NCBI GenBank assembly: GCA_004020315.1
Contig: SAQG01000002.1
Coordinates: 393,495-457,494 of the forward strand
Source: Mesorhizobium sp.
GTDB taxonomy: Bacteria; Pseudomonadota; Alphaproteobacteria; Rhizobiales; Rhizobiaceae
Length of the DNA: 64,000 nt
Reading direction: 5' to 3'
Numbering within the stretch: the stretch's first letter is position 1; each line of letters begins with the position of its first letter. The notes under the pieces are model-generated. The model saw only the letters and a list, made by a program, of their open reading frames with translations. It did no database searches and was not told where the DNA came from. A program made the position numbers and the translations under genes. This document shows positions 47,032 through 50,676 of the stretch, in pieces.

Positions 47032-49497
47032 CTACCCAAGCTTGTGACAAAGTCGATCGAGAACGTCTCGAAGCGCATTAGCGGCTTGGTCACGCTCGTC
47101 AGCAGACATCAGCTCGGGTTCAGCCTCCAGCCTGAGATGCGGCAGCACGGTTCGAACGGCGCTGCGGGCGGCGACCATATTGGCCATCAGATCGAGGACG
47201 CGATAGGTGGCGACGGGATAGGCGATACCCCTGACCTGGATGTGTCCCAGTTCCACGCAGGCGATAGTGTCCTTCACTTGCGCAAACGTCTCATAGGAAA
47301 TGAGCACGGCGCCCGGCGGCGCCTCCTGCTCGAGGCGTGAGGCGAGATTCACGGCGCCGCCGATGATCGTGTAGTCCATCCGGTCTTCGCTGCCGAAATT
47401 GCCGACGGTGCAGTAGTCGGTATGGATGCCGATGCGGCAGCGCAGCGGCGTTTCGATGCCGATGTCACGCCAGATTTCGGCAAGGTCGGTCATCCGCTTC
47501 TGCATGGCGAGGGCCATCTCGACGCAGGCGAGCGCGTCCTCCTTGACACCGCGAGTCTCCGGATCGCCGAAAAACATCAAGATCGCGTCACCGACATACT
47601 TATCGATCGTCGCGCCGTGATCCGAAGCAATTTTCGACATTTCCGTCAGATAGTGGTTGAGGAGCTGGGTGAGATCCTCGGACTCCATCTTGTCAGTGGT
47701 CTCGGTAAAGCCAGCGATGTCTGAGAAGCATATGGTCAGCTTCTTGCGCTGGCTGGCGATCCTGACGTCCTGACGGCCAGAAAATATCGATTTGTACACC
47801 TGCGGCGCAAGATACTTGGCCAGCTTGTTGGAAAGCGCCTCGAGAGCCGCGGATTTCTCGGCGAGGTTCTCCTCCCGTTGCTTCAGCTCCGTGATGTCCG
47901 AGTAGACGGCGACCGTTCCGCCGCCGGTGATCCGCCGCTCGCCTATCATGATCCATCGTCCATCGCCGCGCCGCTGCACCCAGGGGTCGCCAGGGTTGCG
48001 GTGCCGAGAGAGCCGCTCGGCGACCCATTCCTCGACCCGCCCCTCAGCATCCTTGATGTAGCCGCGCTCAGCGGACCGGCGGATGATGTGCTCGAACGTC
48101 GTGCCGGGCGTCATTTCCTCCAGGCCGGCGTAGAGCAGTTCGCGATAGCGGCTGTTGCTGAGGACGAGCCGGTCCTGCCCGTCGTAGAGAGCGAATCCCT
48201 CGGAGATGCTCTCGATGGCATCGACGAGCCGCTGGCGCGCCTCGGCGACCTCGCGCAGGTTCTTTTCCTCGACCTCGACCGCGGTGTCCCGGAACAGCCT
48301 GAGCGCCTCGGCCATGCGGCCGATTTCGTCTCGGCCGGCCGCAGGTAGGGGCGCTCGAAGATTGCCGCCAGCGATCGCGAACATGCCTTGGCTCACCGCC
48401 CCCAGCCGGGCGAGAAGGCTTCGGTCAACATAGAGCCAGACCACCAGAACCGAACTCAGAAGACTGAGGAAGGCGGAGCCAAGGACAACTCCGGTGCCGT
48501 AGCGCTGGACGACCGCGGCTTCGAGACCGGACGCGGTGATCTCGCGGTCCGCCGCGGCGACCAGCCGATCAACGGCAGCGGTGAGGCTGCGCGACAGCCG
48601 ATTGTTTTCGCCGAGAAGCTTTTCGCCCTGCGCCAGGACGGCGAGCTCGTCCTGGCGGGCCTTGGGGATGCTCTTTTCGCCATCGATCAGCGCCTTAAAC
48701 TCGTCCACCCGTTGTCGGAAGCGGACCTGCAGCTTCACGTCGATCTCGGCGGAGATCGTTTCCAGAGCAGCAAGGGACCGGCGCAGCGGAAACAGGGCCA
48801 ACGCCAGATCGCCCGGCGTCGACGCGTCCGCCGTCCTGACCAGAGCGTCGTTGACCGCCGATATCTCCTGGTGCGCCCTCTGTTGGGGGATGTAGGCTGC
48901 AATCGCCTGGACGAGATCGGCCATGACCGCCGCGCTTCGATCCGGCGCGAGCGATGCGTCGGCCGCAGCCGCCCGCCACTGCGCGAGCTTGGAATTCATC
49001 ACCAGGATGCCGGAGGCCACGAGACGCTGGCCTGCAATTGTCGTCGCCGACAACCGGCGCAACAGCCCTTCCTTGCGCGCGACCACGGCGAGGCGCGTGG
49101 CAACAAGGTCGTCGAGAGCGTCGAGGTTGCGCCTGAGACCGAGCACCGCAGCCTCGATCTCAGCCACCGCTGGCGTTTCGAGCGCGGCACCCTTGAGCGC
49201 GGCCAGCAGCTCCTCGAGGCGCGTCATCTCGACCCCGATCGCGGCCGAGACTTCGTTGTGCCGGGCTTTGCTAATCGACGTCAGCACGGCCGGCGCAATG
49301 GCCGCGACCCGCTCGGCCTGGCGCGACAGCTGGAGGGAGGCAAGCGCCGACGGCACCCGATCTCTGGTGATGCGGTCGACGACGTCGCCGACCTGGAGAA
49401 AGGCATACAGGGCAGCCGCTGTTGCCAGCACTGCAAAGGCGCTGATCCCGAAAAAAGCCAGCAGCAGGCGGCCGCGTATGCCGAGGCGTTCAAGCAT
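47032..49497 (-). CDS. Membrane adenylate cyclase (class III) with periplasmic sensor, HAMP and PAS domains
   Basis: An 821-residue protein. A transmembrane helix (residues 11-33), a helical periplasmic region (about 35-332), a second helix (about 335-356), HAMP (357-410), PAS (about 424-538: ISEGFALYDGQDRLVLSNS), and a C-terminal class III cyclase domain (about 585-770). Catalytic residues are complete: metal-binding Asp593 and Asp637, adenine-selecting Lys633 and Thr710, transition-state Asn717 and Arg721, so cAMP is the expected product. The periplasmic part is wholly alpha-helical and Ala/Leu-rich like the sensor domain of TorS-type proteins. The gene follows a periplasmic binding-protein gene by 81 bases on the same strand. 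Confidence 0.9.
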   Translation of the reverse strand: MLERLGIRGRLLLAFFGISAFAVLATAAALYAFLQVGDVVDRITRDRVPSALASLQLSRQAERVAAIAPAVLTSISKARHNEVSAAIGVEMTRLEELLAALKGAALETPAVAEIEAAVLGLRRNLDALDDLVATRLAVVARKEGLLRRLSATTIAGQRLVASGILVMNSKLAQWRAAAADASLAPDRSAAVMADLVQAIAAYIPQQRAHQEISAVNDALVRTADASTPGDLALALFPLRRSLAALETISAEIDVKLQVRFRQRVDEFKALIDGEKSIPKARQDELAVLAQGEKLLGENNRLSRSLTAAVDRLVAAADREITASGLEAAVVQRYGTGVVLGSAFLSLLSSVLVVWLYVDRSLLARLGAVSQGMFAIAGGNLRAPLPAAGRDEIGRMAEALRLFRDTAVEVEEKNLREVAEARQRLVDAIESISEGFALYDGQDRLVLSNSRYRELLYAGLEEMTPGTTFEHIIRRSAERGYIKDAEGRVEEWVAERLSRHRNPGDPWVQRRGDGRWIMIGERRITGGGTVAVYSDITELKQREENLAEKSAALEALSNKLAKYLAPQVYKSIFSGRQDVRIASQRKKLTICFSDIAGFTETTDKMESEDLTQLLNHYLTEMSKIASDHGATIDKYVGDAILMFFGDPETRGVKEDALACVEMALAMQKRMTDLAEIWRDIGIETPLRCRIGIHTDYCTVGNFGSEDRMDYTIIGGAVNLASRLEQEAPPGAVLISYETFAQVKDTIACVELGHIQVRGIAYPVATYRVLDLMANMVAARSAVRTVLPHLRLEAEPELMSADERDQAANALRDVLDRLCHKLG

Positions 49498-49578
49498 CGC
49501 GGCAACGCTTTGATCCGAATGAACCCGCTAAGGTGGTCTGCATCAGATATCCCATGCGGCGCGCCGTCGAATTGGCCC

Positions 49579-50676
49579 TTACTCGACCGGCACGTACTCT
49601 CCACTTCGCCACACGTACCATACCCATTTCTGGGTCGAGAGATCGCCCTTGTCGTCGAAATCGATCGAGCCCAGGACAGTGTCGAACTCCTGCCCGCGCA
49701 GGGTCGCGATGACCGTCGCCAGCTCCAGCGAACCTGCCTTCTCGACCGCCTGCGCCCAGACCTGGACGGCAGCGTAGCTCAGCAGCGTGTAGCCTGCGGG
49801 CTCGAAGTTTTCGGCACGGAATCGCTCCACTACCGGGGCCGCTTCGGGGTTTCGCCGTGGGTCCGCGGAGAACGTGAAGAGGGTCCCCTCGGCCGCGGGG
49901 CCGGCGATCAGGGCAAATTCCTCGGTCGCCAGGGCATCGCCGGAGATGATCTGAACCGCGTAGCCGCGGTCGCGTGCGGCGCGAGCAATCAGCGCAACCT
50001 CTGCATGATACCCACCGACATACAGCACGGCGATGCCAGCGGCCTGTAGTGCAGCGACCTCGGCCGAATAGTCGTCCTTGCCTGGGGTGTACGCGTCGTA
50101 GACAGCTTCGGTCACGCCCCGCTTGTTCAGCTGCTTTCTGGTCTCATCGGCGAGACCTTTCCCATATGTCGTGCTGTCGTGAAGGATCGCGACCTTCTTG
50201 TCGCCCCAGTGATCGGCTAGGTGGTTGCCGGCCACGATTCCTTGCGTATCGTCGCGACCAATGACGCGGAAGACGTTGGCCCGACCCTGTTCGGTCAGCT
50301 GCGGATTGGTCGATCCCGGCGAAATCTGCAGAACTCCCGCCGCCTCGTACACCTCCGATGCCGGGATCGAGGCTCCGGAGCAGTAGTGACCGATGACGAG
50401 CACCACGCCATCAGCGACCAGCTTCCGGGCTGCCACCACCGCCTGCTCGGGATCGCAGAAATCGTCGACCGCGATTAACCCCACCTGCTGGCCGAGAACG
50501 CCGCCCGCCGCATTGAAGTCGGCAACAGCCATCTCTGCCCCACGCTGCCCCTGCTCGCCAATCCAGGCGAGCCGTCCCGTCATCGCGGCCGAAACCCCGA
50601 CCAATACCTCCGCCCGCGCGGGGCAGATGAACAACGCCGCGAGCGCCACAAAAGCCACTGTGATGATACGGTGCAT
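49579..50676 (-). CDS. Orphan periplasmic amino-acid-type binding protein (LivJ-like), possible sensor partner
   Basis: A 365-residue type 1 periplasmic-binding protein with signal peptide (IITVAFVALAALFICPARA). Family segments: VGVSAAMTGRLAWIGEQGQRG; LVIGHYCSGASIPASEVYEAAG; QISPGSTNPQLTEQG; ILHDSTTYGKGLADETRKQL. Relatives bind branched-chain amino acids, amides or aromatic acids. No permease or ATPase gene is linked; instead the adenylate cyclase follows by 81 bases. It may therefore act as the ligand-loaded partner of the cyclase's periplasmic domain rather than as an importer component. A GTG at 50685 is an alternative start; the ATG at 50676 is preferred. Confidence 0.88.
   Translation of the reverse strand: MHRIITVAFVALAALFICPARAEVLVGVSAAMTGRLAWIGEQGQRGAEMAVADFNAAGGVLGQQVGLIAVDDFCDPEQAVVAARKLVADGVVLVIGHYCSGASIPASEVYEAAGVLQISPGSTNPQLTEQGRANVFRVIGRDDTQGIVAGNHLADHWGDKKVAILHDSTTYGKGLADETRKQLNKRGVTEAVYDAYTPGKDDYSAEVAALQAAGIAVLYVGGYHAEVALIARAARDRGYAVQIISGDALATEEFALIAGPAAEGTLFTFSADPRRNPEAAPVVERFRAENFEPAGYTLLSYAAVQVWAQAVEKAGSLELATVIATLRGQEFDTVLGSIDFDDKGDLSTQKWVWYVWRSGEYVPVE

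Follow-up and report, generated by a model that had tools for sequence, protein, structure and literature searches.

In TorT/TorS of Escherichia coli and Vibrio, the partner of the sensor is TorT, a type 1 periplasmic binding protein, and LuxP/LuxQ similarly combines a binding protein with a membrane sensor. According to PMC11113362 (available in part), binding proteins have been shown to drive chemoreceptors, histidine kinases, protein kinases, and diguanylate cyclases/phosphodiesterases, adenylate cyclase not being named in the available part of this enumeration. Likewise, no adenylate cyclase linked to a binding protein was described in the literature searched, which consisted mainly of titles and abstract openings, subscription papers not included. 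A stretch of 64,000 nucleotides of Mesorhizobium sp. (GCA_004020315.1, contig SAQG01000002.1, positions 393,495-457,494; hereafter called the window, to which the coordinates of the gene pair refer) contains a gene coding for a LivJ-like periplasmic binding protein, followed by a gene coding for a membrane-bound class III cyclase with a TorS-type sensor domain. With a probability of roughly three in four, these genes encode a two-protein receptor, in which the ligand-loaded binding protein docks on the TorS-type sensor and thereby alters a predicted synthesis of cyclic AMP (cAMP).

A first line of evidence concerns the architecture of the cyclase protein. An earlier note on this DNA had claimed a binding-protein gene and, 81 bases on, a class III cyclase with two transmembrane (TM) helices, a periplasmic domain of about 300 residues, HAMP and PAS domains, and a complete catalytic site. 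Indeed, both open reading frames (ORFs) were present on the minus strand, and hydropathy, Pfam matches, and catalytic residues agreed with this layout (Table 1), suggesting that two membrane helices frame the periplasmic domain. The model of the latter consisted of helices only, with no strand (predicted local distance difference test, pLDDT, 87.9), and a structure search of the Protein Data Bank (PDB) gave TorS as best matches, including the TorT-TorS complex entries 3o1h, 3o1i, and 3o1j. The TorS sensor fold, on which the note had made its proposal depend, was thus found in the model. A LuxQ-like sensor was ruled out, as the model is all-helical and matches TorS. The closest named protein to the sensor region was that of M. 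ventifaucium (98%). The TorS sensor is described as two stacked four-helix bundles, and a piston-like movement is mentioned (PMC8534201, available in part). It is quite unlikely that the helical domain itself senses the membrane or is the binding site of a small ligand, which the binding protein would remove or compete for; McpS, a next-best match and solved with small ligands according to the entry titles, and PilJ, which also comes after TorS in the match list, speak for this, as do several chemoreceptor-type members of the wider sensor family without an adjoining binding-protein gene, but the top matches belong to TorS, the structure of which was solved in complex with its binding protein, TorT, and a binding-protein gene is nearly always present in the sensor subfamily considered here.

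A second line of evidence is the recurrence of the pair. Species genomes were scanned using the sensor region as query, and the 80 best of 234 relatives were retained, giving loci (numbered with the prefix L) from Alpha- and Gammaproteobacteria, Desulfobacterota, and one metagenome-assembled genome labelled Anaerolineales, the sensor of which grouped with a Desulfobacterales one on the sensor tree. A binding protein of the same family was encoded directly upstream on the same strand in 71 of these 80 loci, or 71 of the 78 with upstream DNA, so that the arrangement is more than chance; the conservation that the note had proposed to survey across Rhizobiales hence extends beyond this order. As for the other loci, the binding-protein gene was divergent in L095, contigs ended in L061 and L108, and the six loci without the LivJ-like family carried other binding-protein families beside the sensor according to Pfam, namely SBP_bac_3 (L096, and partially, just under the cut-off, L106), DctP (L112 and L119), NMT1 (L109), and NMT1_3 (L115). 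The gap between both genes amounted to 72-87 bases in most rhizobial relatives and 24 in Microvirga. Among 146 genomes of the genus, the sensor-cyclase was present in 35 and the binding protein in 34, the latter without exception belonging to those 35; the remaining genome (G799) had a cut contig that ends in the last residues of the binding protein. The genes were 66-88 bases apart in 33 of 36 places in the genus, the others being gaps of 312 and 539 bases (the latter for a partial sensor match) and one cut contig; G717 had a second adjoining pair (cyclase 57% and binding protein 61% identical). This co-occurrence and spacing indicate that the pair is patchy but maintained as a unit. Similarly, of the 297 family-level genomes, eight had a close binding protein (E<=1e-125), and the sensor protein was present in each of the eight.

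Furthermore, no liv permease genes accompany the pair. Probes for LivH, LivM, LivG, and LivF, taken from the liv operon of this very genome and checked with Pfam, gave no LivH or LivM match in the window or in any of the 80 loci, and those for LivG/F gave weak, generic ABC ATPase matches in 12 of the 80 loci and at several places in the window. In a control set of six loci that surround further paralogues of the binding protein in this genome, the probes did retrieve LivH and LivM at three (L120, L123, and L125). A regular position of the homologues beside liv permease genes, which the note had named as an argument against itself, was not seen in these 80 loci, and a transport role with liv permeases is unsupported, given none of 80 loci versus three of six control loci. 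Binding proteins without a permease of their own that feed shared permeases do exist, and the livHMGF operon of this genome, located on another contig, has a binding protein 49% identical to that of the pair. In addition, gene neighbours are not always functionally linked (PMC11113362, available in part). That the binding protein serves such a distant permease, its position beside the cyclase reflecting co-regulation only, is nevertheless unlikely in view of the near-complete co-occurrence in the genus with a contig end as the exception, the occurrence of the pairing across Alpha- and Gammaproteobacteria and Desulfobacterota as well as with outputs of the kinase and phosphatase type, and the fact that the solved relative of the sensor fold is a receptor for a binding protein.

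The binding protein matched the Pfam families Peripla_BP_6 (E 8.8e-56) and ANF_receptor (E 1.2e-25), and its score against the LivJ transport type of NCBIfam (NF011933) was 332 bits, below the cut-off of 477 bits. The closest solved structure was Atu2422 (3ip5; 48% identity, root-mean-square deviation 1.1 over 342 residues). Residues S100, T123, Y223, and D247 aligned to positions of the leucine-binding protein that are taken to be its amino-acid pocket, and were conserved in 74, 73, 71, and 73 of 74 binding proteins, respectively. An amino-acid-like ligand is therefore inferred from the fold and the pocket residues; because these residues are kept and Atu2422 is the closest structure, a small amino acid or gamma-aminobutyric acid (GABA) is tentatively the best guess. 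The binding protein was modelled closed, resembling ligand-bound 3ip5, a state that AlphaFold2 (AF2) may adopt by default. In L042, L044, L054, L056, L097, and L114, two tandem binding-protein genes of the LivJ-like family precede the sensor, perhaps representing one receptor with two ligands.

As to the output, the Guanylate_cyc domain scored 85.6 bits (Pfam cut-off 21.9), and 192 residues of the catalytic domain could be aligned with CyaB of Pseudomonas (3r5g; E 5.6e-70). All catalytic residues were present, namely D593 and D637, presumably binding metal, K633 and T710, presumably binding substrate, and N717 and R721. A comparison of 52 sensor-cyclases, window included and three short rows excluded, showed all six to be conserved in 48. 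Lys-Thr and Lys-Asp substrate pairs presumably stand for the use of ATP, and the K633/T710 pair also occurs in the aligned CyaB, which points to cAMP as the probable product of the window cyclase. In the remaining four sensor-cyclases, the substrate positions were changed into Q and S (L099, L101, and L105) or H and A (L104), and these may possibly use another nucleotide. Class III domains make either cAMP or cGMP, and the Q and S of the former three loci would fit a pair that works as proposed with cGMP or another cyclic nucleotide as product; this, or a cyclase that is inhibited instead of stimulated, is quite improbable for the window, as it shares K633 and T710 with 47 other sensor-cyclases and CyaB, while the receiver-cyclases described below carry K and D. 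Of 21 matches in this genome, 15 cover the cyclase domain. In the Mesorhizobium loci L053, L054, L057, L059, and L110, extra class III cyclase matches (25-31% identical) lie upstream on the opposite strand.

The predicted interface for which the note had asked was addressed indirectly, with a linked chain. Because the gap and both genes are in one frame, the window could be read through from the mature binding protein, over 28 linking residues, into residues 1-333 of the cyclase. With an alignment of 36 relatives read in the same manner plus 53 rows of single proteins, the AF2 model reached a pLDDT of 86.9, with values below 50 only at 344-359 and 361-377, round the linker, and a predicted template modelling score (pTM) of 0.79. 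Compared with a pTM of about 0.5-0.6, estimated by hand for two domains without fixed relation, the arrangement of both domains seems to be confidently predicted. A PDB search with the linked model gave binding-protein-type matches in the rows shown and was uninformative on the complex, because one domain fills the match list. A mechanism may be proposed in which the binding protein would first close on its ligand and then, in this closed form, dock on the TorS-type domain, whereupon TM2, HAMP, and PAS would relay the change to the catalytic dimer and the level of cAMP would change.

Several observations weigh against a receptor of this kind. Firstly, the sensor matched its named families weakly, as the Pfam TorS_sensor_domain hit (residues 48-153; E 9.6e-5, 22.4 bits) did not reach the cut-off of 27, and the hit to NCBIfam TIGR02956 (TorS; residues 6-418; E 9.4e-23, 80.3 bits) was far under the equivalog cut-off of 676.5 bits; similarly, no TorT chain occurred among the 44 PDB sequence matches (E<=1e-3) of the binding protein, a shared fold still being possible. 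Secondly, the pairing is less strict on a wider scale. The 80 loci favour close relatives, being the best of 234. At the family level, the sensor search (E<=1e-150) matched 12 genomes, four of them without a close binding protein, of which three matched only from residue 260 or 337 and the fourth was 40% identical over nearly the whole length. At the class level, TorS-like sensors occurred in 30 of 385 genomes, with a LivJ-type gene within 1.5 kb in only 8 of the 30 loci, window included, and none in 22. Longer stretches of ten class-level places contained a DctP-type gene beside the sensor in L166, L168, and L170 and a LivJ-type gene in L174, and no binding-protein gene was seen in those of L167, L169, L171, L172, L173, and L175, where not every ORF was scanned. 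The unaccompanied chemoreceptor-type members and the four sensor-cyclases with changed substrate positions belong here too. Thirdly, the score of the linked model that speaks for docking, its pTM, is a global one. Lastly, the sensor domains of AgtS and AruS of Pseudomonas failed to bind the neighbouring binding proteins tested (PMC11113362, available in part).

Table 1. Features of the binding-protein/cyclase gene pair, with positions in the window.
Feature	Residues	Position	Strand	Basis
LivJ-like periplasmic binding protein, 365 aa		49579..50676	-	ORF, ATG start; no permease genes nearby
Predicted Sec signal peptide of the binding protein	1-22	50611..50676	-	hydrophobic N-terminus by eye; hydropathy peak at residue 4
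Intergenic gap, 81 bases		49498..49578	-	sequence
Membrane class III cyclase, 821 aa		47032..49497	-	ORF and domains
Predicted TM helix 1	about 9-30	49408..49473	-	hydropathy
TorS-type all-helical periplasmic sensor domain	36-335	48493..49392	-	
Predicted TM helix 2	about 334-357	48427..48498	-	hydropathy
HAMP domain	359-405	48283..48423	-	PF00672, E 1.4e-7
PAS domain	428-543	47869..48216	-	PF12860 (PAS_7), E 2.8e-25
Class III cyclase catalytic domain	583-765	47203..47751	-	PF00211, E 4.2e-24; 3r5g alignment

For the binding protein, an alternative GTG start is possible at 50685. Regarding the surroundings of the pair, two paralogous regulator genes (GntR-type by eye; window 43829-44128 and 51063-51362), 80% identical over 300 bases and 7234 apart, flank the stretch that carries it and might mark how it was acquired. 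In addition, genes for an ABC transporter of sugar type (binding protein, ATPase, and permease; window 51977-55170) adjoin the pair, by eye as a separate unit.

The sensor is not confined to cyclases. In different rhizobia, one sensor-PAS region, with 70-77% identity across residues 1-566 or 1-420, was joined to either a class III cyclase or a HisKA-HATPase-receiver module, and further outputs were a SpoIIE phosphatase (L111 and L112) and a chemoreceptor (L119). A sensor tree of 88 rows, four without output label, was made with a quick method, its long branches L038, L119, and L112 being unsure; it requires seven output changes over the 84 labelled rows and contains a rhizobial kinase clade (nine rows, seven distinct, SH-aLRT 100), nested in a supported clade of 54 rows, 44 of them cyclases. 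In 20 of the 24 kinase loci (L046, L049, L062, L065, L067, L075, L080-L092, and L107, not L095, L096, L098, and L115), an ORF coding for a receiver-class III cyclase lay within about 0.4 kb downstream of the kinase gene, some loci having a further receiver-like stretch in between. Both the receiver and the cyclase domain were found by Pfam in all nine cases examined, the remaining 11 being assigned by similarity. All 20 receiver-cyclases retained the six catalytic positions, with Lys and Asp as substrate pair versus mostly Lys and Thr in the sensor-fused cyclases. A separate receiver-cyclase gene was found in none of the 54 cyclase-type loci, some of which had just 1.5 kb or a contig end downstream. 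As 13 of the 20 receiver-cyclase loci belong to Microvirga, they represent two main lineages and not 20 independent cases. Kinase and receiver-cyclase form a second predicted route from a LivJ-like binding protein to cAMP, and that two types of cyclase accompany one kind of binding-protein/sensor pair argues for a cyclic nucleotide as the kept output. In a further member of the class (L181 of G362, and L167), the genome contains a TorS-type hybrid kinase with a receiver-cyclase-like match about 4 kb away.

Taken more broadly, it is considered probable, with some reserve, that TorS-type domains act as docking adaptors in general, accepting LivJ, SBP_bac_3, DctP, or NMT1 proteins outside and serving a cyclase, hybrid kinase, SpoIIE phosphatase, or chemoreceptor inside; rhizobia and Microvirga would then have wired one amino-acid-type binding protein to cAMP twice, once by direct fusion to a cyclase and once by way of a kinase with receiver-cyclase, and the pair would be the first adenylate cyclase receptor gated by a binding protein, corresponding in bacteria to the layout of natriuretic receptors. 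Rhizobia possess numerous class III cyclases, for most of which no input is known. If true, the two-protein receptor would supply one of these cyclases with a concrete input that can be tested, would extend the range of binding-protein-driven receptors to adenylate cyclases, and would mean that the cell reports an outside compound through cAMP. Moreover, the occurrence of a cyclase in both wirings yields a testable prediction on cAMP, and the natural swaps of output and binding-protein family hint at a portable module in the TorS-type domain, of use in sensor building.

Compared with known systems, the pair has in common with TorT/TorS a periplasmic domain of TorS fold that is framed by two membrane helices and precedes HAMP, and a binding protein as probable partner, as in the TorT-TorS entries. 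It differs in its binding protein, which belongs to the LivJ family, and in its output, with PAS and Guanylate_cyc after HAMP instead of kinase, receiver, and Hpt domains; since a kinase output was looked for and was absent, the pair is a variant and not a member of TorT/TorS. A double PDC fold includes beta-sheet. This is the fold of the LuxQ sensor (PMC8534201, available in part), whereas the sensor model of the pair is all-helical. Binding proteins that act on enzymes of cyclic diguanylate (c-di-GMP) also place a second-messenger enzyme under binding-protein control, but these enzymes are diguanylate cyclases/phosphodiesterases (PMC11113362, available in part). With CyaB of P. aeruginosa and other class III adenylate cyclases, the pair has the catalytic domain in common, its input being distinct in that it consists of a TorS-type periplasmic domain with an adjoining binding-protein gene. 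Similarly, the gene of the binding protein adjoins a receptor gene, unlike that of Atu2422, the GABA/amino-acid binding protein of Agrobacterium, which presumably serves transport. Finally, natriuretic peptide receptors have a cyclase output as well, with input and output in one chain; their guanylate cyclases share the fold family of the input side, as indicated by the ANF_receptor match, whereas the input of the pair is divided between a soluble protein with its own gene and a helical domain.

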